Assembly (NCBI GenBank): GCA_913050645.1
Contig: CAJXAG010000004.1
Location: forward strand, 1 to 33,260
Direction: 5' to 3'
Source: an uncultured bacterium
Lineage (GTDB): Bacteria; Patescibacteriota; Minisyncoccia; Phycocordibacterales; UBA918
DNA length: 33,260 bases
A program made the position numbers and the translations under genes. The notes below the pieces were generated by a model. It saw only the letters and a program-made list of their open reading frames with translations. It did not search any database and was not told where the DNA came from. How positions within the stretch are numbered: position 1 is the stretch's first letter; each line of letters begins with the position of its first letter. This document shows, piece after piece, positions 10,390 through 28,507 of the stretch.

Positions 10390-11439
10390 ATGAACTCCGT
10401 AAACGTTGATGGAAAAAACTATGTAAAAGCAAAGGATCTCGCCAGAGATCTCGGCTACACGGCAGACTATGTCGGACAGCTTTGTCGAGCGGGGAAGGTT
10501 GATGCACAGCTGGTGGGACGCAGTTGGTACGTAAATGAGGAGTCACTGCAGGAACACAAGCGTGGTCGCTACCGCAGTAACAAGCAAGAGACTATTAAAG
10601 AGGTTGCGCGAACACTGAGGGCAAAAGACGTTGACGACGATTCGCATAAAATAACAGTGCATCTTCAAGATGGTGAAGAGAATAAAAATGAAGGATATGC
10701 AAACCAATCGTTTTATACACGGGCAACTGCTCCGGCTACAGCTACAAAGTATCACACTGATGAAGCAGAACTTATTCCGGGTGCTGATAAAAATATCTCC
10801 AAAACCGGCAGGATCGGTGTGCGTTTAGCTGATGCGCAGAACCTAAAAATTACATCGAAAGGAAAAACGTTCGATTTTGACCCAACGCAACGACAACAGC
10901 TACGCTTTAGGGGAAAGCTTTCAGTTCTGGATGTCGAGGATGAGCTTGAAGTTGCCGACGAAGATGAACTTGAAGAAAAGAAGTTGTTGGATCAAAAAAC
11001 TGCATTTCAGAATCGGGTTGCACAAAAGACTTTTACCGGAGAAGTTTCAGAGATAAAAAATGATAAGGCTGAACGCAAGACAGCCGAAAAAACTAGTAAA
11101 ATCAACGTAAAACACCGACGTCCAACCACAAAGCGCAAGAAGCGCGACCTTCCCTTTGAGCATAACTCGCAGGGAGTGCTTAGTATGCAGCGTGAGCGGA
11201 TTGTAGGGAGAAATCCAGTTGGCGGTACGTTACGTGTAGATACACACGCTACTGTTGACCCTGTTTCTCCAGGAAGAAGGACCTTTTTAGTTGTTACAAC
11301 AACGCTTATGGCCATTATTTTAGGCGTTTTAGTGACAAGTGTGGAGCAAACAACCACTATAGTTAATGGTGAGGTGGTGGTGCGGTATACCCTGGATTTT
11401 GAAAATATTGTAGCTGCTGCATACGATGCATTTCGGTAG
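10390..11439 (+). CDS. HTH-domain protein with one C-terminal-region TM segment (membrane-tethered DNA-binding protein)
   Basis: N-terminal KAKDLARDLGYTADYVGQLCRAGKVDAQLVGRSWYV (excisionase/MerR-like HTH); charged linker; TM TFLVVTTTLMAIILGVLVTSV near the C-terminus. Confidence 0.65.
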   Translation: MNSVNVDGKNYVKAKDLARDLGYTADYVGQLCRAGKVDAQLVGRSWYVNEESLQEHKRGRYRSNKQETIKEVARTLRAKDVDDDSHKITVHLQDGEENKNEGYANQSFYTRATAPATATKYHTDEAELIPGADKNISKTGRIGVRLADAQNLKITSKGKTFDFDPTQRQQLRFRGKLSVLDVEDELEVADEDELEEKKLLDQKTAFQNRVAQKTFTGEVSEIKNDKAERKTAEKTSKINVKHRRPTTKRKKRDLPFEHNSQGVLSMQRERIVGRNPVGGTLRVDTHATVDPVSPGRRTFLVVTTTLMAIILGVLVTSVEQTTTIVNGEVVVRYTLDFENIVAAAYDAFR

Positions 11440-11896: not shown

Positions 11897-12670
11897 ATGT
11901 CGAAGGAACTTGAAATTGATGGCGTCCGATTTGAATCTAGTGCATCTGTTGCGCAGCGTTTTAACTACACTCAAGACTACGTAGGGAGACTTGCGCGAGA
12001 AGGAAAAGTGACCGCTTCAAGAGTTGGTCGCTTTTGGTTTATTGATGTTTCATCTTTTGAGAAATTTATCGAAGACTCAGAAGAAGAAAAGCGGCAGCGT
12101 TCACAAGCGTTGCGTGAAGAGCGGAAGCAGGAGCGGGTGGCGGTTACAAGCAACGCATCAGCGTCTCGGGTCAAAAAGAAAAGGGTGATACAAGTACCAA
12201 CACGAACTCACACGTTCGCAGAACAATACGCAGCGCTGGCACAAGCAGTCGCGGTTGTGTTCTGCGGGCTTCTCGTGGGAGCGCTTGGATGGTCAGCACA
12301 AGAGCTTCAGCTTGCACAGCTGGAGCGTGGTGCTGGTGCAATTACAGCTCAGGTACAAGAAGTATTTGCACGCGTAAGTGATGTGGCCAAAGAGAACGTT
12401 ACTGTCTCAAGCTCTGTGCAGCAGGCTCTTGTTATAGAAGCGGCATTAGAAACATCTGTCTTTGCTGAGTTTCCAGTGCAGTCGTACGACAGAGAGTTTC
12501 TGCCGAACCTAGATACGACTGAGACTGACACGCTATATCCATTCTCCGATGAGACTCAGATGGTGCGTGAAGAGGATGGTGTGCAGGTTGTGCGCCCGGT
12601 TTTTGAAAGTACGACAGAAGAGGTTGAGTATCAAGTTTCAGCGCAGACGCTTAAGAAAACTACCAGGTAG
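11897..12670 (+). CDS. HTH-domain, single-TM membrane-tethered protein; paralog of 10390-11439
   Basis: SVAQRFNYTQDYVGRLAREGKVTASRVGRFWFI aligns with the 10390 HTH; TM AALAQAVAVVFCGLLVGALGW; extracytoplasmic C-terminal region. Confidence 0.65.
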   Translation: MSKELEIDGVRFESSASVAQRFNYTQDYVGRLAREGKVTASRVGRFWFIDVSSFEKFIEDSEEEKRQRSQALREERKQERVAVTSNASASRVKKKRVIQVPTRTHTFAEQYAALAQAVAVVFCGLLVGALGWSAQELQLAQLERGAGAITAQVQEVFARVSDVAKENVTVSSSVQQALVIEAALETSVFAEFPVQSYDREFLPNLDTTETDTLYPFSDETQMVREEDGVQVVRPVFESTTEEVEYQVSAQTLKKTTR

Positions 12671-12841
12671 CCTATGAATATTCTTAAAACACAACAGAAT
12701 ATTCTACGAAGCATCTGCGGAAAAGGTGCGACCTTAAGGATCTTCGCAGAAGCGGGTGTACGGTCTTTGCTTTTATACAGAAGGTCGAAAGGAAAAGGTA
12801 GGGTGCGATACAATGATACATATAATATGTATATGTATGCG

Positions 12842-13612
12842 ATGCGTATAGCTAGAGCAAGCTCTTTTTCTTTTGTGTTCCTGCTGCTAAGCGGTTTGGT
12901 AGCCAATGTGCAGGCGCAGGCACTGCCAAGTGCGGTGACTGTGAGCTTACTTGATAGCGTGAATGTTATTGAGGGGATGGTGGTATCTGCCCAGGAAGAC
13001 ACAGGAGCATATGTACTTTCTGGAAGTATCGACGATGCACAAGTGTATGGCGTCGTTGCTGCACAGCCACCAGTGGTTTTTGCAACTGAAGGAACAAACA
13101 CTTCGGTTATTACTGAGGGCATCGCGCTGCTGCGAGTGAATAACCAAGGAGGGGCAATACAGCGTGGGGACTTGTTGGTAACGTCCTTAGAAACCGGTGT
13201 GGCAATGAAAGCCTCGGAAGAACAGGTATATGTGTTTGCCATCGCGCTACAGGCGCTACAGGAAAGCCAGGGAGTGATTCAGGCTGAGATAGGTGCAGAG
13301 CGAGCGCAGTTGTTGCGTGCACAACAGCGAGAGATTGCAGCTGCAGCACTTGCAGAGGATCTGACAGTAGAAGACCCAAAGAAATTATCGTTTATCCGTG
13401 CCGCGATTGCGGTGCTGCTTGTGGTGGGTGCGCTTGGCTTCTTGCTCTACAGTTTTCGCTCACTGCTTACCCATGGTGTTGTTTCAGTGGGGCGTAACCC
13501 ACGTGCAAAGGGATCCATTATGACGTTTTCGTTTGCGAACTTTGTGTTTGCACTCATCTTATCTGCAGCAGTGGTATTTATTGCTGTTGCGGTACTGGTG
13601 TTGCCGTTGTAG
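12842..13612 (+). CDS. Secreted-type protein with extracytoplasmic domain fused to a C-terminal F-type c-subunit-like TM hairpin lacking the ion-binding carboxylate
   Basis: Signal peptide MRIARASSFSFVFLLLSGLVANVQAQA; C-terminal TM1 IRAAIAVLLVVGALGFLLYSF, loop SVGRNPRAKGSI, TM2 FANFVFALILSAAVVFIAVAVLVLPL. ORF extends upstream to 12674, but 12842 (or ATG 12827/12833) suits the signal peptide. Confidence 0.6.
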   Translation: MRIARASSFSFVFLLLSGLVANVQAQALPSAVTVSLLDSVNVIEGMVVSAQEDTGAYVLSGSIDDAQVYGVVAAQPPVVFATEGTNTSVITEGIALLRVNNQGGAIQRGDLLVTSLETGVAMKASEEQVYVFAIALQALQESQGVIQAEIGAERAQLLRAQQREIAAAALAEDLTVEDPKKLSFIRAAIAVLLVVGALGFLLYSFRSLLTHGVVSVGRNPRAKGSIMTFSFANFVFALILSAAVVFIAVAVLVLPL

Positions 13613-13642: not shown

Positions 13643-13684
13643 CGTTCGAAATTTCGTTCGCAATTGCGAACGAAATTTCGAACG
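13643..13684. repeat. Perfect 42-bp palindrome
   Basis: cgttcgaaatttcgttcgcaa|ttgcgaacgaaatttcgaacg: left half is the exact reverse complement of the right half, zero spacer. Confidence 0.95.
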
Positions 13685-14003: not shown

Positions 14004-14783
14004 ATGTTCTTTGGTTTTGAGATTCTTGTTGGGGTGTTCGTTGGAGTACTTATTGCGACCATTGTGGTGGTGGTTATTCAGATTCGCACGACCAGTCAGA
14101 TAAGTAAGTTGACCTTCCCAGCGTACGAGTACGCGATTAAAAAAGCTGAGGCTGAGGCTGATGCAATTGTGATTGATGCGCGTAAGAAAGCACGTGGGAT
14201 TATGATTGAGGCTGAAAAGGCAGGTCAGGCGATGGTAGGAAATTACGACACACAGGCGAATGGTATTCAAAAAAAATATGAAGCAGCACTCGCGCGACAA
14301 ACTGAAAAGGTAGTGCAGGAGTTTAAAGCAGGTGCTGCAGAGCAGGTGCAGAAGTTGTATGCGGTAACCAGCACTGCTGAAAAAGCAATTACCACTGAAC
14401 AAAAGAAGGTAACGGACAACGTAGTGCGTATTAACGCGTCGCTTGAAGAAGTGGCAACGAAGGCTGAACATCGTACGCAGGAGGTAATCAATGCACTTGA
14501 TAAGCGGCTTGAGCGTGTGGGTGCGGCCATTGAGGCATCGTTGAAGGAAACACAAGAAGGTGGAGCGAAGAAGCTACAGGAACACCTTGGTAGTTTGCAG
14601 GGCGTAGCTGACGATCATATCGAGGTGTACGCAGCGTCACGAAAGAAATTGCTTGATGCGCACATTGAGCAGCTGGTTGACGCAGTGGTCATGAAGGTTC
14701 TTCATAAGCAGTTGCCGGTTTCAGAACATGGCTCACTGGCCCGTGACGCACTTGAGGAAGCTAAGAGTAAACATATTCTATGA
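14004..14783 (+). CDS. F-type ATPase subunit b-like membrane-anchored coiled-coil protein (elongated)
   Basis: N-terminal TM (ILVGVFVGVLIATIVVVVIQI) then a long Ala/Lys/Glu helix; first gene in a b-delta-alpha-gamma-beta-epsilon ordered cluster. Confidence 0.6.
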   Translation: MFFGFEILVGVFVGVLIATIVVVVIQIRTTSQISKLTFPAYEYAIKKAEAEADAIVIDARKKARGIMIEAEKAGQAMVGNYDTQANGIQKKYEAALARQTEKVVQEFKAGAAEQVQKLYAVTSTAEKAITTEQKKVTDNVVRINASLEEVATKAEHRTQEVINALDKRLERVGAAIEASLKETQEGGAKKLQEHLGSLQGVADDHIEVYAASRKKLLDAHIEQLVDAVVMKVLHKQLPVSEHGSLARDALEEAKSKHIL

Positions 14784-15307
14784 TCACCGACACTTCAGCA
14801 CTACTACAAAAAATGCTGGAGAATACGTATGCCCAGGCGGATATGTATCGCCGTTTAAGTGTACTTCGGCAGTGTGTTGAGTATGCAGTTTTTACCGAGA
14901 CCAGCATGTCCTACGAAGAGGAGTGCACACTTTTTCTCTCAAAGCTTGATAATCGGGAAGATGCAATCGCAGTGCAGGCGTGGGGGGACGATGTCTTTCG
15001 TGCGTTTACAAAAAAGAACATCGGCAAGCTCATGCAGGAGTTGCAGGAGAAAGTAGATACGCTGCCGCTTCTGAAGCTGTATGTAGCGGTGGCGTTACCT
15101 GAAGAGGAGGTTGCGAAGATAGCAAAATGGTGTCGAGCGGAGGTGCGCGATGGTATGCTTTTGGATATGCAGGTTGATCCACAGGTTGCAGGTGGCTGTG
15201 CGTTTGTGTGGGACGATACACACCATGACTTCTCGTTTCATAGTCGCATGAAGGCAGTGCCGGGTGCAATCACACAGGAATTAGAGAAGTATGCGAAAAA
15301 CGAATGA
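14780..15307 (+). CDS. F1-ATPase delta (OSCP)-like subunit
   Basis: 175 aa; C-terminal VDPQVAGGCAFVWDDTHHDFSFHSRMKAV resembles delta 'DPSLIGGFVVRVGD..iDgSvrgqL'; position between b-like and alpha-like; ATGA overlap with upstream gene. Confidence 0.6.
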   Translation: MITDTSALLQKMLENTYAQADMYRRLSVLRQCVEYAVFTETSMSYEEECTLFLSKLDNREDAIAVQAWGDDVFRAFTKKNIGKLMQELQEKVDTLPLLKLYVAVALPEEEVAKIAKWCRAEVRDGMLLDMQVDPQVAGGCAFVWDDTHHDFSFHSRMKAVPGAITQELEKYAKNE

Positions 15308-16735
15308 TCGAGACTATGAAGTTGGCTTTGTAACGCACACCAAGCGGTACCTTTTGTCTATTGAAGGGTTGCCGTCTGCGAAGGTGAACGACTTGCTGAT
15401 GGATGATGAGGGTCATCTGGCGATTATACGTTCACTTGCCGATGATCACGTTTCTGCGTTGGCATTGTCAGCAACAGCGGGGCCAGGTGATCGCTACAGA
15501 TACTTTGAGGGTGACTTTATGTACTCGTGTGGGGAGCCGCTTTTTGGACGTATTATAAACGCACTGGGGGTACCGGTAGATGGAAGAGGCTCACTTCCGC
15601 CCGGAGACGTACCACTACGACTGGAGCTTGATGCGCCGGGGATTGAGCAGCGGGTACCGATTCATGAGCAACTGAATACCGGTGTGACCGTTGCGGACCT
15701 TATGATCCCGATTGCAAAGGGGCAGCGCCAGCTCTTGTTTGGGCCGATGCGTAGTGGAAAGACGACGTTTTTAACCGAGACGGTGCTGCAGCAGAAGTCG
15801 GAAGGGACAGTATGTATCTACGCGGTGCTTGGAAAACCAGTGGCTGGACTGCGGAAGGTAACGGACACCATTCTCGCGGGAGACGAGAAAGGAAAAGTGA
15901 TTGTGATCGCAGCACTGTCTGACGAGCCTGCGTCGATGATTGCACTCGCACCATCGGTCGCATATCTCTTAGCAGAGCACTATCGCTCACAGGGAGAGGA
16001 TGTGTTGGTGATCCTCGATGACCTTGATGCACACGCGAAGTATTTGCGTGAGATTGGTCTCTTAGAAGGACGGTTGCCGAGTAACGAATCGTACCCGGGA
16101 GACATTTTTTACCAACACGCCCACCTTATGGAACGCTCAGGACACTTTAATGAACAGCTTGGTGGAGGCTCGATTACATCGCTACCGGTGGTGCAGACTG
16201 ACCTGAAGAACTTCTCCGACCTGATTCCGACAAACCTGATGGCGTGTACTGATGGCCACTTTGCATTTTCGCCATCGTTGCGTGCTGAGGGTATCCATCC
16301 GTCGATCAGTATTGAACAGTCAGTAACGCGTGTAGGGCGACAGTCACAAGAGACGATGCAAAAGGAGCTCACCACAAAGCTACAGATTTTACTTGGAAGT
16401 TTTCGACAGCAGATCGAGTACGCACAATTTAGTGCGGACTTAAGTACACAGACAAAAGAGACACTTCGACGCGGTGCGATTGCCGAGGCATTGCTTCGGC
16501 AAGATCCGTATCGTCCTGTGGCAACCGGGGCGCAAGTCTTGCTTTTAGCATTGTTGTTCACCACGTTTTTTGACGGTAAGGATGTGAGTTATGTCACACG
16601 ATATAAACCAATCTTGCTTGAGACACTGGGATGGCATAAGTCATTTGCGCAGATGCGTACCGATGCACTGAAAAAAGCAGTGTACGATGATTTTATAGCG
16701 CAGCTACAAGCACTGTTGCCGGTGTTGGAAAAAGT

Positions 16736-16748
<13 letters not shown>
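15291..16748 (+). CDS. F1-ATPase alpha-like subunit (diverged)
   Basis: 485 aa; GRIINALGVPVDGRG, LLFGPMRSGKTTF (Walker A), YPGDIFYQHAHLMERSG, GGSITSLPVVQTDLKNFSDLIPTNLMACTDGH, SVTRVG (Arg finger). Confidence 0.88.
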
Positions 16749-19550
<2,802 letters not shown>

Positions 19551-19813: not shown

Positions 19814-22800
19814 GTGAAGCTACAAACGTGTGATGGGCTACCGATCTGCAGGCGATACCCTATGCGTATCAATATACGGAATAAAGGTAAAACGCGTTTT
19901 GTACAACGTATGCTTTTGATAGGTATGCACCTTGCTCTTTGGGTGTTCCTCTTTTTTAATAGTACAACGTACGCACACGCTGCAGAAACAGAACCTTCTT
20001 TTGCTGATTCAACAAAATCAGTGATCCAGGAAGTATTCCGACAAATGGAGGGAGTCATGGCGTACACTGCACAGGCGATTGATGCTGTATTCTCAAGTAC
20101 CGTGCGTGCACAGCAGGAACAACAGGACGATGTTGGAGACATCGATATTCCTGATCCATTGCCGATTACCTCAACCCAATTTCCGTTAGCAGGTGTTGGT
20201 GTGGGTACGCTGATTATCAACGCGCCACTTTCCGTAACCAATACGCTGAGCGCAACCGGCGAGACATTTTTAGCCACTACCACCGTTGCGGGGTTATTGT
20301 CTGCAGAAGAGCTTGCACTTGAGGCGTTGTCGGTGTCGGGTCTGGTGAGTGCCGGAGCGTTCTCTGGCGGTCGACTTTCGATACAAGGTGCTGCACAGGT
20401 GGGGTCACTTGACGTCGCTGCTGCAGCCACACTTGCAGAGCTTTCGGTTTCTGGAGATACGTCAGTGAATGGTTTAACCATAAGCGGACAGGCGTTGGTT
20501 GCATCTCTCTTGGTTCAAGGAGCGACACAACTTACTGGACTTCTTGAAGCAGATGGTGGTATTAACACCAATGGTGCCGATGTTGATCTTGGAGATGGTT
20601 CTATCTTCGCTTCAAACATTGTGAATGAAGTCCTCGCAGGTGACGGTGTGACGATTACGGGTACTACTTCAGCACCGATTATATCGGTCGATCTTGATAG
20701 CGTGGTAACCGAAATAAATGGTGATTCCGGTGAGATTACCATTCGTGGCGGTACTGACATCAGTGTGAGTAACTTGCGTATTAACAATACTTCAGACCTT
20801 GCCAGTGTACGTGCGCGAGGAAGTTGTACAGACTGTATTACTGATAGTAACGTCGTGAACGCGCTGACGCTAACCGGCGGCACGATCGACGGTGTGATTA
20901 TTGGGTCAAGCACAGTTGCAGAAGCATTCTTCAGTGACGTGACGATTGGTACTACAACAGCTACCACTGCAAACTTTGCAGTGTTTGGTAGCGGGACTGC
21001 AAACTTTGGTGGAGGCATTAATCTCGATACAGGCTGTTTCTCAATTGGAGGTATTTGTGTAGCGTCTGCAGCCTCATCGACATCATATATAGGTCTGTTT
21101 GATACACCGAGCTCATTGCTTGCTGGGTCAATCCAGTATGCAAATGCATCAGGAACTGCATTGGTGCAATCTACAAACTTCGTGTTTGACGGGTCTGCGC
21201 TTGCAATCGGTACCACTACGCCAGCTGCAACCCTTACGGTCGAGGGAGACACGGCACTTACCGGAACAACAAGTGTTGTTGGTACCTTTAGTGCAACGGG
21301 TGGTGTAACACTCGGAGGCACTCTTGGTGTCACGGGCAGTACCACGATTTCAGACAGTCTGGTGGTGAACGCCAGCTCAACCTTTACTGACACGCTGACG
21401 GTAGGTAGCTTTGTGACGTTGCAATCTGATCTTTCAGTCATCGGAACGTCTACCATCGGTGGTGGCTTGGTGGTCAGTGGTGCAACGACGCTGTCTGATG
21501 CGATCACTATCGATGGTAACGTTTCCGTGCAAAATGGTGCCACATTCCGCCTGTATGATGCTGACAGCAGCAATTACGTTGCGTTTACGGCCTCCACATC
21601 GCTTGTGGGTAATACCACGTGGGTGTTGCCTAATGGTGACGGTAACGCTGATGAGGTGATGGTAACTGATGGAAGTGGAAACATCCGCTTTGAGCCAGTG
21701 AGTGCCATTGGAGGTGGGGTAACACAGTACACGAACCTTATTGATACACCCGCATCGTTTACTGCAGGGGCAATTCAGTACGTGAACGCAAGTGCAACAG
21801 CGATGACGCAGTCGGCAAATTTATCGTATGATGGTTCCTCACTTGCAGTTGGTACTCCAACATCAACAGCAACGCTTACGGTAGATGGTTCGGTTGATTT
21901 TGTTGCGTATGACGGAACGATTGACTTTAGCTATGATGATGCATCGAAACTTATAGGTGTGGGTACAGAAAGTCCGACTGATAAAATCACGCTGCAACGT
22001 GGATCGTTTACACAAATTGGTGGCTCTGCAGGAAATCTCTACAGCCCAACGCTTGAGAACACGGTTGGTATTGGTGATACAGCATATGATATTGAAATCG
22101 CTGGTAGTTACGCGTATGTAGTCTCTGATGTAACGGGTGACGAGTTTCATGTCTTTGATATCGGAGATGTGGCGCAGCCGAATGAAATAAGTAGTTTGAG
22201 TCTTCCTTCATATGGAAATGCGCTGACCGTCTCAGGTGGGTATGCATATGTGGTGACTGGTTTTGCTGGGGACGATTTTCATGTGATTGATATTTCTGAT
22301 CCACTCAATCCAAGTGAGGTTGATTCAGTCAATTTACTTGCTTCGGCAAATGATGTAGCCGTCTTGGGGAAGTACGCCTATGTAGTTACCGATGGGTTAA
22401 ATAGCAATTTCCAGGTTATTGATATTAGTATACCAACAGATGTGCGACAGATCGCGTCGACGTCGCTGCCTACCAATGCAACAGGTGTAGTCGTACAAGG
22501 AGATTATGCGTATGTGACATCAGAATCAGGAGGAACAGATTTTCATGTGATTGATATTTCTGATCCTGAGAACCCATCCGAGACTGATTCTCTTAATTTG
22601 GCTGATGCAGCAAATACCGTTGTGGTTGCAGAATCAGGACTGTATGCGTACGTGGGCACAAACTCGACAGGTGACGACGTGAGTGTGATTGATATTTCTG
22701 ATCCATCAAATATTAGTGAAGTCAATGGTATTAATCTCGGTGTGAGTGTAACGGGTATGAAACTTGTTGGTGATATTTTGTATGCATCGAGTCTTACTGC

Positions 22801-24100
22801 GGGCCAGGATGTACATGTGATTGATGTGTCGAGTCCTTCAAATCCTGTAGAGATTGGAGGTGCAGACCTCGGGAGCGGAAACACATATGCGGTAGCGGTT
22901 GTTGGTCAGTATGTCTATGTAACTTCAAATGCGGGTATTGTGGTGGTTGGTATCTCGGGTGTGAAATCGCAGTCAGTGCTTACTCGCTCGCTACAGACTT
23001 CAAACTTGTTTGTCGCAGGAGGTGCAAACTTTGTGAGCGACCTAACTGCACAAGGGTCTTTGTTTGCCGGTGGTGATATTCAGAGTACTGGTGTGTTGCG
23101 AATTTCAGGTACTGACGCTTCACATGTTTTGGGTGCGTTTAGTGTAGGAACGACATCAACAACCACCGGCCTTTTGGTTGACGGAACGATGCAAGCAACG
23201 AACTTGCTTGGTGGAGCGGTAAATCTCACTACTGACGCAAATGGCAATGTCATCCGTGACCCATCCGACGCACGCCTGAAAACTAACGTAGTGACGCTTG
23301 AGGATCCTCTTGAGTCGCTGTTGCAGCTACGGGGAGTACGCTATCAGTGGCGTGACAAAGAACGCTTTGGATATCAAGCTGAAATTGGTTTCATTGCACA
23401 AGAAGTCGACCTTGTGCTTCCAGAGGTGGTGCGTAAGGGAGGAGACTATTGGTCAATCAACACGCGGAACATTCTTGCAGTAGTTGTGGAAGCAGTGAAA
23501 GAAGTGTGGGCTGAGCTACAGGGAACACAGGATGAAGTTGATGATTTACGACAGCGTATCGGTCAGCTAGAAGCACAGCTTGGTGAGCCAAATGAGTACA
23601 AGGAGGAAGGTGAAGGAGAAGTATCGGGAGCGGAACAAGAAGATCTGCAGCATGAGACAGAACCGGAAGATGAATCGGAGGATCAAGAAAACCAGACGGT
23701 CGTCACAGAACCAATAAAGGAAAAAGAAGAAGACATTTCAGTGGGTGTTGGTGAAGAAAATCAGGAAGCGGAACCATCTGGTGCAGTTGAGACAGTTTCG
23801 GAGGAAGTAGCTGCTGAAGAAACAGAGGTCGCTGCGTCAAGTACTGAAACGGTAGTAATAAATGAAGAAGCGGATACAGAAGCACTATCGGGAAATGAAG
23901 CGGCCTCGGAGATATCAGAAGACCAGGAGCGTGCCGAAGTAGATTCAGTGATTGAGGCACAGCAAGAGGTTGTACAGGATGAGTCAGAACTACCTGAGGT
24001 GACGGCAGCAACAGAGGAAGAGACAGGCACCATAGATAAGGAAGTTACTGAAGCGGTTGAAGTTACAGAAGAAAATTCTACAGATCCTGGTGCTGTATAG
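19814..24100 (+). CDS. Giant secreted/surface fibre-like protein: repetitive N-terminal region, LVIVD-type 7-bladed propeller, Peptidase_S74 intramolecular chaperone domain, acidic C-terminal tail
   Basis: 1428 aa; hydrophobic leader MLLIGMHLALWVFLFFNSTTYAHA; seven YAYV..(F/V)HVIDI repeats; SDARLKTNVVTLEDPLESLLQLRGVRYQWRDKERFGYQAEIGFIAQEVDLVLPEVV; Glu-rich C-terminus. The annotated start may be a later ATG (e.g. MRINIRNKG at 19862). Confidence 0.85.
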   Translation: MKLQTCDGLPICRRYPMRINIRNKGKTRFVQRMLLIGMHLALWVFLFFNSTTYAHAAETEPSFADSTKSVIQEVFRQMEGVMAYTAQAIDAVFSSTVRAQQEQQDDVGDIDIPDPLPITSTQFPLAGVGVGTLIINAPLSVTNTLSATGETFLATTTVAGLLSAEELALEALSVSGLVSAGAFSGGRLSIQGAAQVGSLDVAAAATLAELSVSGDTSVNGLTISGQALVASLLVQGATQLTGLLEADGGINTNGADVDLGDGSIFASNIVNEVLAGDGVTITGTTSAPIISVDLDSVVTEINGDSGEITIRGGTDISVSNLRINNTSDLASVRARGSCTDCITDSNVVNALTLTGGTIDGVIIGSSTVAEAFFSDVTIGTTTATTANFAVFGSGTANFGGGINLDTGCFSIGGICVASAASSTSYIGLFDTPSSLLAGSIQYANASGTALVQSTNFVFDGSALAIGTTTPAATLTVEGDTALTGTTSVVGTFSATGGVTLGGTLGVTGSTTISDSLVVNASSTFTDTLTVGSFVTLQSDLSVIGTSTIGGGLVVSGATTLSDAITIDGNVSVQNGATFRLYDADSSNYVAFTASTSLVGNTTWVLPNGDGNADEVMVTDGSGNIRFEPVSAIGGGVTQYTNLIDTPASFTAGAIQYVNASATAMTQSANLSYDGSSLAVGTPTSTATLTVDGSVDFVAYDGTIDFSYDDASKLIGVGTESPTDKITLQRGSFTQIGGSAGNLYSPTLENTVGIGDTAYDIEIAGSYAYVVSDVTGDEFHVFDIGDVAQPNEISSLSLPSYGNALTVSGGYAYVVTGFAGDDFHVIDISDPLNPSEVDSVNLLASANDVAVLGKYAYVVTDGLNSNFQVIDISIPTDVRQIASTSLPTNATGVVVQGDYAYVTSESGGTDFHVIDISDPENPSETDSLNLADAANTVVVAESGLYAYVGTNSTGDDVSVIDISDPSNISEVNGINLGVSVTGMKLVGDILYASSLTAGQDVHVIDVSSPSNPVEIGGADLGSGNTYAVAVVGQYVYVTSNAGIVVVGISGVKSQSVLTRSLQTSNLFVAGGANFVSDLTAQGSLFAGGDIQSTGVLRISGTDASHVLGAFSVGTTSTTTGLLVDGTMQATNLLGGAVNLTTDANGNVIRDPSDARLKTNVVTLEDPLESLLQLRGVRYQWRDKERFGYQAEIGFIAQEVDLVLPEVVRKGGDYWSINTRNILAVVVEAVKEVWAELQGTQDEVDDLRQRIGQLEAQLGEPNEYKEEGEGEVSGAEQEDLQHETEPEDESEDQENQTVVTEPIKEKEEDISVGVGEENQEAEPSGAVETVSEEVAAEETEVAASSTETVVINEEADTEALSGNEAASEISEDQERAEVDSVIEAQQEVVQDESELPEVTAATEEETGTIDKEVTEAVEVTEENSTDPGAV

Positions 24101-24213: not shown

Positions 24214-24894
24214 ATGCACAACTTAAAAAAACAAAATCCTATAGTGGCTGCTCTAACAGCAACTATTGGCACCGCTGTAATCGCAGCAATGGCGTATTTA
24301 TTATTTGAACCAACTGCGATGCTTGCAGCAACTGACACGGATAGCTTTACCGTGCGTCAGGAAATTGGTGCTGAGATCTCATTCTCAACAGTATCAGGCG
24401 ACATCAATATGGGTGGTTCTGCAATCGGTGGTGCAACCGGTGGTAACCGAAATGGTTCAACAACAGTCGGTATTACTACTAACAATGCTGCCGGATATCA
24501 GCTTGATATCCAGTTTGAGAGCGCAAACGGTATGGAGCACCCAACGGAGACTGACTTTATTGATTACTATGCCACCACGTCACCTGACTACACCATGAAT
24601 CTCGGTGCAAACAGCAGTGGATTCGCATACTCAGTTTCATCAACAGCACCAACAAACTCAATCTCGTCGTTTGACAATAACGGTAGCTCATGTGGAGTTG
24701 GTTCAAATAAAAGCATCAGCAACTGTTATGTAATGCAGGGAACGCCGACATCTGGTGCAACAATTGTTAATACTACAGACACGGCAACTGACGAGCTTAC
24801 TACTATCGGGTTCCGGGTTATGGTTGCAGCAGGATCAGGTCTTGCGAACGGATTCTACTACGCAACAACAACATTAACCGCTACAACAAACTAA
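24214..24894 (+). CDS. Secreted beta-sandwich surface protein (WxL/pilin-like family)
   Basis: 226 aa; N-terminal hydrophobic signal; AATDTDSFTVRQEIGAEISF; GGNRNGSTTVGITTNNAAGYQLDI shares pattern with the 26076 gene. Confidence 0.6.
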   Translation: MHNLKKQNPIVAALTATIGTAVIAAMAYLLFEPTAMLAATDTDSFTVRQEIGAEISFSTVSGDINMGGSAIGGATGGNRNGSTTVGITTNNAAGYQLDIQFESANGMEHPTETDFIDYYATTSPDYTMNLGANSSGFAYSVSSTAPTNSISSFDNNGSSCGVGSNKSISNCYVMQGTPTSGATIVNTTDTATDELTTIGFRVMVAAGSGLANGFYYATTTLTATTN

Positions 24895-24990
24895 TAACGT
24901 CTCTAGGTAGTATCTAACGCCTACTGAGGTATCTACCAAACGTTAGCTTTCCTCGAAAAGCATGGATGTGTTATACTAGCAACTATAATT

Positions 24991-26079
24991 TTGAAGAAAA
25001 TGACTATAGATAAGCAGGTATCACTCACAAACGTTATTCTCGGAGCTGTTCTATTAACACTCATCGCTTTGCCGATGAGTGTTTTTGCGCAAAGCACAGC
25101 AACGAGTTCTTCTGACACAGAAGAAGTTGCGACTTCTACTGAAAAAATAGTAGCTACAGCACCCACAGTTGATCGTGTCTACGATAATTACAAACGTGAA
25201 GAATTGCCGCAGTCAAACAAAGTATTTAATGACTTTGTGGTAGGGCCTGGTCGTTTTTCCCTTGAGATCGCACCAGGGGAGAGTAAAACGGTTATTGTAA
25301 ATATTTCCAATCGTCTTGGCAGCAAACGTCTCTTCCAATTTGATGCTGAAGATATGACCGCAGGTGGTGGTGAAAATGAAGGAACGATCAAGCTCTTGGG
25401 TGATGAAGTTGGTCCATACACTATTAAAGATTACATATCAGTACCGTATGATCGCTTTTATATCGAAAACAACGAACGCGCAGTGGTGCCCGTGACGGTT
25501 TCTATTCCAGCTGACGCTGAACCGGGAGGTTTCTACGGTTCTATTTTGACAGAAGTGATGCCTGATGAAACACAGGTAGTTGAGGAGGATGTTGCTCCCA
25601 CAGCTCCGTTGGTAACGCGTATTGGTACACTTTTTTACGTAACAACACCAGGTGAGATCGCGCAAGAAGGTTCGTTGGTTGATTTTGCGACACTCCCTGA
25701 TAAGTCTTTCTATCTCGGAGGACCGGTTAATATGGGGATTGTATACGAAAATACTGGCTCAGTGCACCTTACACCGTACGGTACCGTTTCAGTTACCAAT
25801 ATTCTCGGAGATACAGTTGGTTTGGTTGAGCTTGATCCATGGTACGTCATGCCACAATCAGTGCGTACACGCGAAATATCTTGGGATCGAGAGTTTCTTC
25901 TCGGTCGCTATACGGTAACGGCTGACATCGAACGTGGATACGGAAATCAGACTGATACACTCTCTTTGGTTTTCTGGGTCTTTCCATGGAAAATAATCGC
26001 CACAGTGTTTGCAGGCGTCTTTATTTTCTTCCTGATTCTTCGGTTTATTCTGCGAAACTTTGAGTTTAAGCGTAAGTGA
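24991..26079 (+). CDS. DUF916-like (WxL-interacting) surface protein with C-terminal TM anchor
   Basis: VGPGRFSLEIAPGESKTVIVNISNRLGSKRLFQFDAEDM, VPVTVSIPADAEPGGFYGSILTEV, C-terminal TM IIATVFAGVFIFFLILRFIL + RNFEFKRK. Confidence 0.7.
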   Translation: MKKMTIDKQVSLTNVILGAVLLTLIALPMSVFAQSTATSSSDTEEVATSTEKIVATAPTVDRVYDNYKREELPQSNKVFNDFVVGPGRFSLEIAPGESKTVIVNISNRLGSKRLFQFDAEDMTAGGGENEGTIKLLGDEVGPYTIKDYISVPYDRFYIENNERAVVPVTVSIPADAEPGGFYGSILTEVMPDETQVVEEDVAPTAPLVTRIGTLFYVTTPGEIAQEGSLVDFATLPDKSFYLGGPVNMGIVYENTGSVHLTPYGTVSVTNILGDTVGLVELDPWYVMPQSVRTREISWDREFLLGRYTVTADIERGYGNQTDTLSLVFWVFPWKIIATVFAGVFIFFLILRFILRNFEFKRK

Positions 26080-26864
26080 TAGAGTACATGCGTGAGTTGT
26101 TCTTACTGGCTAGTTCTTCACTCATAGTTACACTCGTGATTGTTTCGTTGACTTCTGTAACAAATCTTGGGTATGCTCAGGTGATGAGTAGTACAAACTA
26201 TCAGATTCAAAGTGATAGTGTGAATTTTGGCGGTGGTTTTAGTAGCTCAACAAATTATCAGCTTGAATCAACCGGAGGTGAAATTGCAACTGGGGAATCA
26301 AGCAGTTCCAACTACGAAGTACGCGCTGGTTTTCAGCAAATGCAAGAGTCTTACATTGCACTCTCAGGCACTAGCAATGTTGACCTTGCACCATCTATTC
26401 CTGGTGTGTCAGGAGGATACTCAAATGGATCAACTACAGTCACAGTAGTCACTGATGCATCTGGCGGCTATGAGTTAACTATAGAAGCAGAGAATAGTCC
26501 TGCAATGCAAAGTGGTGTTAATACCATTGCTGACTACGTCCCGGGGGGAGCAGCAGCTGACTACGATTTTAATATCGGTGCAGCTGATGCATACTTCGGC
26601 TTCTCACCAGAAGGAGTCGATATTGTGCAGGCGTTCCTTGACGATGGGGGTGCGAGTTGTAATGAGCCGGCAGGTACTGATACTGCTGATACGTGCTGGG
26701 AAGGTCTGTCAACAACTGCACAACAAATCGCGTCTGATACAGGTGCAAACCATCCCGCAGGCGCCACCACAACGATAAAGTTTAGAGTGGGTATTGGTGG
26801 TTCTGTTGTGCAGCCTGTTGGTAGCTACGTTGCAACGACAACCATTACAGCAATTTCATTATGA
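26076..26864 (+). CDS. Secreted surface protein, paralogous in its C-terminal domain to 24214-24894
   Basis: SSTNYQ(I/L)(Q/E)S repeats, then GGYSNGSTTVTVVTDASGGYELTIEAENSPAMQ parallel to the 24214 protein; GTG start overlapping upstream stop or ATG at 26088. Confidence 0.6.
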   Translation: MIEYMRELFLLASSSLIVTLVIVSLTSVTNLGYAQVMSSTNYQIQSDSVNFGGGFSSSTNYQLESTGGEIATGESSSSNYEVRAGFQQMQESYIALSGTSNVDLAPSIPGVSGGYSNGSTTVTVVTDASGGYELTIEAENSPAMQSGVNTIADYVPGGAAADYDFNIGAADAYFGFSPEGVDIVQAFLDDGGASCNEPAGTDTADTCWEGLSTTAQQIASDTGANHPAGATTTIKFRVGIGGSVVQPVGSYVATTTITAISL

Positions 26865-28507
26865 TGATGTTTTATAGACTGCGACAATATGGTCTTTGGG
26901 TACTTGGAGCATTTTTTTGTTTTCCACTTTTTATATATGCAGCAAGTGACACTAATACATTTAGTGTGCGGCAGTTGGTGGGTGATGATTTTGCGCCACC
27001 AACAACCCCTGCGTTCATTACTGCAGTCCCAGTTGCTTCTACACAAATAGATGTTTCATGGGGTACTTCTACAGATGATTTTGCTTTTGGCGGATATCGT
27101 TTGTATCGAGACACGGTACATATTGCAACTACATCGCTTACTTCATACAGTGATACTGGCCTGACGCCAAGTACGACATACAGTTACACCGTTGAGGCCT
27201 ACGATCAAACGATGAAGATTTCTACCAGTACTGGTCCGGTTGCTACTACGACACTGCAAGCTGTGACACCTCCAGCAACCACAACACCGCCTTCCTCAGG
27301 TGGCGGAGGCAGACAGGTGAAATTGAACGAACTTTCAATTGACACAACTACTGACAGTGCGGTCTTTTCCTGGGAAACAAACGTGTATACCCGCTACGTG
27401 CTTCGTTGGGGGTTAAGCAGCTCATACGAGTTAGGGTTCGTACAAAGTGATGTCTATAAAAAAGATCACTTTACCCGTGTTGACGGTTTAAGTCCCGGTA
27501 CTGAGTATCAGTATGAGCTTGTGGGATATGACCGACAGGATAGGGAGTATGTACTCCGCCGTGATGTATTTAGAACAACCGATTTGCCAGATGAGACTGC
27601 GCCTGCAAACGTATCACATCTGCGGGCAACAGTGTCTGCGGACACTGTGTATCTTAGTTGGAAAAATCCATCTGAGACTGATTTTGCAAAGGTTCGTATC
27701 GTACGTAACTATTTCTTCTATCCACTGCGTCCAACTGATGGTTTTATTGTGTACGAAGGATCAAACGAGTCTGTGCTTGATGCTGATGCACTGCAGGAGT
27801 ATGAGCGACAGTACTACACTGTGTATACCTATGATACTCTCGGAAATATTTCCTCGGGTGCTGTGGTGCAGGCAGTGCGCGACGGGGTAGTGATACTTGA
27901 ACCGGATGTCCCTGATGTAGAGGGACAGGAAGATGATGATCGTGGTGGAAGTGGAGGTGGAGGTTCTTCTGATGACTCCGATGATGATACTGCAAGCACT
28001 ACAGATCCAGTGATAACAGAAACTATCTCATTCAGCGATGTCATATTTATACAGGATGGCTTCGTGCTCAATCATGGTAGCAACAACGTGGTGGTACGTG
28101 ATGATCTACCAGTAACTATTCAGCTTGCTGCTGACTTGCTCCCGAAGTATGCAAAAGCAGTAACGGTAACATTGCGTGATGGTAGTGATATACCACAGTC
28201 GTATATTTTACGAGCAAACAAGGCTCGTACCATGTATGAAACGCGCATTACAACATTGCCAGAAGGAACCTATTTTGCATTGTTTGCGATATACAATTTT
28301 GCGCAAAATGCTGAGACGGTGTTCCGCGGAGAAATTATTTCAGCGCCATATACAAACGTACTTACACAAGAACGAGAATCAGTTATTGTGAATCTTGTTA
28401 AAAATGAAAAAATTGTTACCTACGGTGCATTTCCTGGACTTCTCTTCTTATTGTTTATTATGTGGTGGTATTTGTTTGTGTTGCGCCGAACGCTTGAGGA
28501 TAATTAA
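26861..28507 (+). CDS. Fibronectin type III-containing surface protein with C-terminal TM
   Basis: FnIII-like VDVSWGTSTDDFAFGGYRLYRDTVHIATTSLTSYSDTGLTPSTTYSYTVEAYD; AASDTNTFSVRQLVG motif; C-terminal TM FPGLLFLLFIMWWYLFVL. Confidence 0.75.
   Translation: MMMFYRLRQYGLWVLGAFFCFPLFIYAASDTNTFSVRQLVGDDFAPPTTPAFITAVPVASTQIDVSWGTSTDDFAFGGYRLYRDTVHIATTSLTSYSDTGLTPSTTYSYTVEAYDQTMKISTSTGPVATTTLQAVTPPATTTPPSSGGGGRQVKLNELSIDTTTDSAVFSWETNVYTRYVLRWGLSSSYELGFVQSDVYKKDHFTRVDGLSPGTEYQYELVGYDRQDREYVLRRDVFRTTDLPDETAPANVSHLRATVSADTVYLSWKNPSETDFAKVRIVRNYFFYPLRPTDGFIVYEGSNESVLDADALQEYERQYYTVYTYDTLGNISSGAVVQAVRDGVVILEPDVPDVEGQEDDDRGGSGGGGSSDDSDDDTASTTDPVITETISFSDVIFIQDGFVLNHGSNNVVVRDDLPVTIQLAADLLPKYAKAVTVTLRDGSDIPQSYILRANKARTMYETRITTLPEGTYFALFAIYNFAQNAETVFRGEIISAPYTNVLTQERESVIVNLVKNEKIVTYGAFPGLLFLLFIMWWYLFVLRRTLEDN

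Follow-up and report, generated by a model that had tools for sequence, protein, structure and literature searches.

Rotary ATPases pump ions or make ATP, and the flagellum is turned by ion flow. The N-ATPases (alternate F1F0; TIGR03305/TIGR03324) form a second F-type operon beside the main ATPase and keep subunit a and an ion-binding c ring. In mycoplasmas, F1-like X0 ATPases act together with surface machinery (PMC12994834, PMC11864180). For the Type 2 G1-ATPase of Mycoplasma mobile, which is a gliding motor, it has been proposed that rotary motion passes via 12-TM and 2-TM proteins (TM, transmembrane helix) to the surface (PMC11864180). A mycoplasma protein with a signal peptide and two C-terminal TMs has been proposed to be a peripheral stalk (PMC3369863).

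The locus compared with these systems here lies in the window, the whole stretch of 33,260 nucleotides that was analysed, which is a complete contig (C4) of a 1.0-Mb Patescibacterial genome (G000). It encodes a fusion protein with a C-terminal hairpin and a second cluster of F1-like subunits, with the following features.

11897 to 12670, plus strand: HTH_17 protein with a TM, immediately preceding the fusion gene; in distant relatives its counterpart forms part of the c-like protein.
12842 to 13612, plus strand: c-derived fusion protein of 256 aa, with signal peptide, outside domain and two-helix C-terminal hairpin (homologues at 50 loci).
12842 to 12919, plus strand: predicted signal peptide MRIARASSFSFVFLLLSGLVANVQAQ (hydropathy and inference).
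12920 to 13378, plus strand: outside beta-rich domain, also present in very large Patescibacterial surface ORFs.
13391 to 13447, plus strand: TM1 of the c-like hairpin, residues 184-202, with the Gly repeat of canonical c mostly lost (hydropathy, structure prediction, alignment).
13490 to 13510, plus strand: polar loop GRNPRAK on the cytoplasmic side, with RNP present in each of 51 homologues (alignment).
13544 to 13600, plus strand: TM2, residues 235-253, with a Leu codon (13553-13555) at the place of the c-ring carboxylate (hydropathy, alignment).
14004 to 14783, plus strand: b-like protein with one N-terminal TM and a long coiled coil, presumed to form the peripheral stalk (assigned on position and architecture, family matches being weak).
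14780 to 15307, plus strand: delta-like protein, OSCP C-terminal region (PF00213, E 0.0038; NF009964, E 1.1e-4).
15291 to 16748, plus strand: alpha-like protein, Arg finger SVTRVG kept.
16736 to 17575, plus strand: gamma-like protein (PF00231, E 7e-22).
17572 to 19287, plus strand: beta-like protein, Walker A GGAGVGKT and catalytic GER kept, N-terminal extension of about 105 residues.
19284 to 19550, plus strand: epsilon-like protein, beta-sandwich domain only, lacking the C-terminal inhibitory helices; a 13-residue segment is kept.
19814 to 24100, plus strand: giant surface protein encoded downstream of epsilon, a candidate partner, with LVIVD repeats and a Peptidase_S74 chaperone.

Among known systems, the mycoplasma Type 3 F1-like X0 ATPase (MMCAP2_0575-0581 / MSC_0618-0624) comes closest. 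Both have an extra cluster of alpha-, beta-, gamma- and epsilon-like genes apart from a true F1Fo, and both are linked to surface proteins (MIB-MIP in mycoplasma). In the window genome, the ordinary F1Fo genes lie on contigs C10 and C26, with one subunit a and one canonical c. The architecture of MMCAP2_0577/MSC_0620 also resembles that of the fusion, with a signal peptide, a large outside part, two C-terminal TMs and a short loop. However, no c homology has been reported for this mycoplasma two-TM protein. The window cluster has b- and delta-like genes and no 12-TM gene; in mycoplasma a 12-TM protein is present and neither b nor delta has been recognised. For the Patescibacterial alpha and beta, ordinary F-type models give higher scores than MSC_0618/0619 do; the NCBIfam models MSC_0618, MSC_0619, MMOB1660 and MMOB1670 gave 353, 197, 268 and 371 bits, below their cut-offs of 570, 520, 600 and 850 bits.

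The M. mobile Type 2 G1-ATPase is similar in that an F1-like ATPase is proposed to transmit rotation to the surface. It differs in being a chain of twin motors whose beta extension is long; in Patescibacteria this extension is shorter, and the cut-off of the MMOB1670 model is not reached. With N-ATPases the cluster shares the position of a second F-type system beside the main ATPase, but it did not reach the cut-offs of the N-ATPase NCBIfam models and has no linked subunit a or ion-binding c. The first-pass annotation, made from the sequence of the window, regarded the fusion and its ATPase linkage as undescribed. In agreement with this, we found no description of such a system in Patescibacteria in open-access papers, subscription papers and preprints being outside the scope of the search.

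The fusion gene and the F1-like cluster

Translation and hydropathy confirmed the ORF, its two C-terminal TMs and the c-like loop as first annotated. The hydropathy peaks of the fusion protein are at residues 3-21 (a signal-peptide-like N-terminus), 184-202 and 235-253, and the predicted topology puts the loop (in full, VGRNPRAKGSI) on the inside, as had been proposed. A longer frame of the ORF starts at 12674 and encodes 312 aa. The ORF at 12842-13612 is a real gene; a pseudogene reading was considered and set aside.

Two HTH_17 proteins with one TM each are encoded upstream of the fusion (10390-11439 and 11897-12670). In several distant, class-level relatives, an HTH_17 domain and a TM start the fusion ORF itself and replace the signal peptide, and HTH_17 also begins several large downstream ORFs in related loci. 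A perfect 42-base palindrome, present as a single copy in the genome, lies between the fusion and b-like genes (13643-13684). A transcript hairpin at this palindrome could set the ratio of the fusion to the F1-like subunits.

Very large surface ORFs of Patescibacteria, a few of them with Peptidase_S74, contain the outside domain as well, and 7 of 17 members match the phage minor capsid protein XM1 gp53 weakly, under the cut-off (best E 3e-5). Its first description as phage-fibre-like is thus partly right. We make no claim on the fold of the domain because the full-length AlphaFold2 model is poor beyond the hairpin (mean pLDDT 46.7), and colicin matches to this part were discarded as meaningless. 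In genomes G262, G128 and G230, the fusion is directly preceded by another ORF, about 540 aa long, that carries this outside domain as well (L069 4526-6133, L064 4673-6343 and L062 3146-4768, in the fusion orientation).

The genes of the cluster usually follow the order fusion, b, delta, alpha, gamma, beta, epsilon; some loci have another order or carry epsilon on the other strand. The epsilon-like gene is on the strand opposite to the rest of the cluster in L064, L065 and L069 (family f81). The beta Walker A, the beta catalytic Glu and the alpha Arg finger are kept in 29/29. The non-catalytic Walker A of the alpha-like protein is altered or lost in L064, L065, L066, L069-L071 and L128. F-type models give far higher scores for the alpha and beta of the cluster than FliI/SctN models do. 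In a beta tree, the F1-like sequences form one clade separate from the canonical beta of the same genomes (support 100/99); lacking an outside reference and containing one long branch of canonical beta, the tree does not show where this clade arose. No subunit a was found in the fusion/F1-like clusters that were read, and canonical a and c are encoded elsewhere.

Downstream of the cluster there is often, though not always, a large surface ORF, either an S74/LVIVD protein or one like it. In the window, the S74 protein is followed at 24214-28507 by a WxL-interacting-like protein, two small surface proteins, an fn3 protein and then gapA. The ORF order after the S74 protein is the same in G024 (L024 10457-14803).

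Relationship of the hairpin to subunit c

Single-sequence searches with the fusion hairpin (Pfam, NCBIfam, ORF-level) gave nothing decisive. The best fusion match to PF00137 (ATP-synt_C) was 18.7 bits, with single sequences remaining under the cut-off of 24 bits; the c homology is visible at the profile level only. A profile of 18 hairpins searched against all PDB chains (177,635 distinct sequences) gave 23 matches to E = 10, every one of them an F-type c (best E 1.1e-4). With 30 hairpins, 26/26 matches were F-type c and the best E was 6.5e-6. When the hairpin profile was compared by hhalign with 20 canonical c sequences from the same genomes, the probability was 96% and E was 1.8e-9, with the RNP loops aligned. 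AlphaFold2 predicted a helical hairpin with its turn at RNP (pLDDT 82 for the hairpin alone), and c chains led the Foldseek lists; the E-values were weak, as is expected for a short hairpin. The c-like hairpin that had been read from the window was thus recovered by the profile search, the profile-profile comparison and the structure prediction. These comparisons show that the fusion hairpin is homologous to, and descended from, the F-type subunit c.

Each of the 51 homologues examined, which come from 50 loci, retains the RNP loop (RNP-x-A/S). The position 20 residues after the loop Arg is Glu in 20/20 canonical c sequences checked in the same genomes and is acidic in 0/51 fusion homologues (Fisher p = 4e-18, with kinship between rows ignored). 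In an alignment of 30 sequences (A6), this position is Leu in 13, Ile in 9, Val in 6, Thr in 1 and Phe in 1. The ion carboxylate is lost throughout the fusion family, in line with the first-pass annotation. In the window protein, Arg218+20 is Leu238 (codon 13553-13555), which is the Leu294 of the long frame that was originally noted in place of the c-ring carboxylate. The accompanying remark that TM2 has no acidic residue at all is correct for the window protein but does not extend to the edges of the family. Many distant members have a Glu at +9, at the cytoplasmic end, and one member has a Glu at +14; neither is at the depth of the ion site. The helix-1 Gly repeat, GPAIGIG in canonical c of the same genomes, is largely absent from the fusion, as had also been observed.

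In summary of the comparison with the F-type subunit c (PF00137), the fusion is alike in its hairpin homology, RNP loop and predicted topology. It differs in having no carboxylate and in the loss of most of the Gly repeat. It also carries a signal peptide and an outside domain and has no linked subunit a.

A candidate surface motor

We propose that the locus encodes an ATP-driven, ion-uncoupled F1-like rotary motor in which a c-derived ring carries a surface domain, and we give this reading a probability of roughly 0.6. It is close to the first-pass reading of an ion-dead rotor ring with an outside cargo domain, which the checks that were run supported. An extra F1-like motor together with an ion-dead c-derived protein suggests an ATP motor that turns or actuates the surface, not an ion pump. 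The fusion hairpins would assemble as a c-like ring with their RNP loops docked on gamma/epsilon. ATP hydrolysis by alpha3beta3 would then turn the gamma-epsilon-ring assembly against the b-delta stalk. No ions would pass, and torque or a conformational change would reach a crown of outside domains. With neither an ion site nor a subunit a, the work would reach the outside domains and the partners they have at the surface, for example the large S74-type protein downstream. Candidate purposes are attachment, movement, and the release or assembly of a surface fibre.

In E. coli, one segment of epsilon faces the c loop; the epsilon-like protein retains this segment and has lost the inhibitory helices, which favors the motor reading. 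The kept catalytic residues, the lost ion carboxylate, the two-way linkage of fusion and F1-like cluster, the separate beta clade and the precedent of the mycoplasma F1-like X0 ATPases favor it as well. Counting against the motor, the absence of subunit a leaves no evident means of holding the stator beside the ring. Counting against the S74 protein as the partner, some loci lack this neighbor, and these genomes are rich in S74 proteins. If the motor reading is true, an F-type rotor driven by ATP has been repurposed for mechanical work outside the cell, and the locus offers a testable model for force transmission across the membrane in the mycoplasma F1-like X0 motors. It would also be a candidate for a machine at the cell surface of Patescibacteria, many of which resist cultivation and, it is thought, live attached to other cells. 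More tentatively, rotary ATPases with an ion-stripped c-ring and outside domains may serve across the phylum as an ATP-driven turntable for Patescibacterial surface fibres, and the X0 of the mycoplasma gliding and antibody-evasion motors may be the same solution with its two-TM protein as the ring.

The Gly repeat packs the c helices, and with most of it lost the ring may be looser, smaller or absent. This loss agrees with a static anchor, in which one or a few hairpins fix the F1-like complex at the membrane via the gamma/epsilon loop and a conformational signal caused by ATP hydrolysis takes the place of continuous rotation, with no full ring; the mycoplasma X0 also has no recognised ring. 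However, gamma-, epsilon-, b- and delta-like parts are all still present, which speaks for a rotor and a stator, and the RNP loop is invariant, which leaves the anchor unlikely, though the strongest of the alternatives. An export or translocation device, with the F1-like ATPase driving transport or assembly of surface proteins and a c-derived pore or ring as its membrane part, would fit the S74, WxL-interacting-like and fn3 surface proteins encoded downstream and the translocation role discussed for mycoplasma. We consider it improbable, because the gamma-like subunit should fill the F1 center as in rotary enzymes and because alpha and beta resemble F-type models far more than FliI/SctN.

Linkage to F1-like genes and spread

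The fusion adjoins F1-like genes in 48/50 loci; the remaining two (G230, G990) have a contig end shortly behind the fusion. Proximity to F1-like genes, which the first-pass annotation had named as a check, is seen wherever the contig continues. Among 398 genomes of the order, the fusion occurs in 16, all of which have the delta-like gene (Fisher p about 1e-27, kinship ignored). The only order genome with a delta-like gene and no fusion is G025, in which the contig starts 278 bases before the b-like gene. A delta-like match in G456 belongs to an ordinary ATP synthase whose c has Glu at +20, and it was treated as a positive control, not as a member.

All three samples, drawn at the level of order, class and phylum, contain the fusion family. 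At phylum level, a match of about E 1e-24 or better that reaches into the hairpin is present in at least 63 of 384 genomes, by hand count among the matches listed. The 20 phylum-sample loci that were read behave like the others, with the RNP loop, no carboxylate and F1-like linkage.

Genomes with the fusion usually also have a canonical F1Fo or A/V-type ATPase. This co-occurrence would allow the fusion to be a regulatory or decoy subunit that enters the ring of canonical c and thereby inhibits or adjusts the ordinary ATP synthase. Such a role is very improbable, as the fusion has its own F1-like cluster beside it wherever the flanks are readable, and several genomes have an A/V-type c only. 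Furthermore, G511 (100% complete) has the fusion and the F1-like cluster but lacks canonical c, a and beta, which shows that the system does not borrow an ordinary ring. G230, in which canonical c went undetected, was not counted as a genome without F1Fo because canonical beta is present. Chance resemblance of an unrelated two-TM hairpin with an RNP loop, which the sub-threshold Pfam score of the single sequence might suggest, is hardly credible given the profile matches to c subunits only among the PDB sequences, the hhalign probability and the F1-like linkage at nearly all loci.

In four loci (L136, L137, L139 and L140, from G189, G174, G025 and G262), the genome combines the F1-like cluster with an A/V-type double-hairpin c and has no F-type subunit a.
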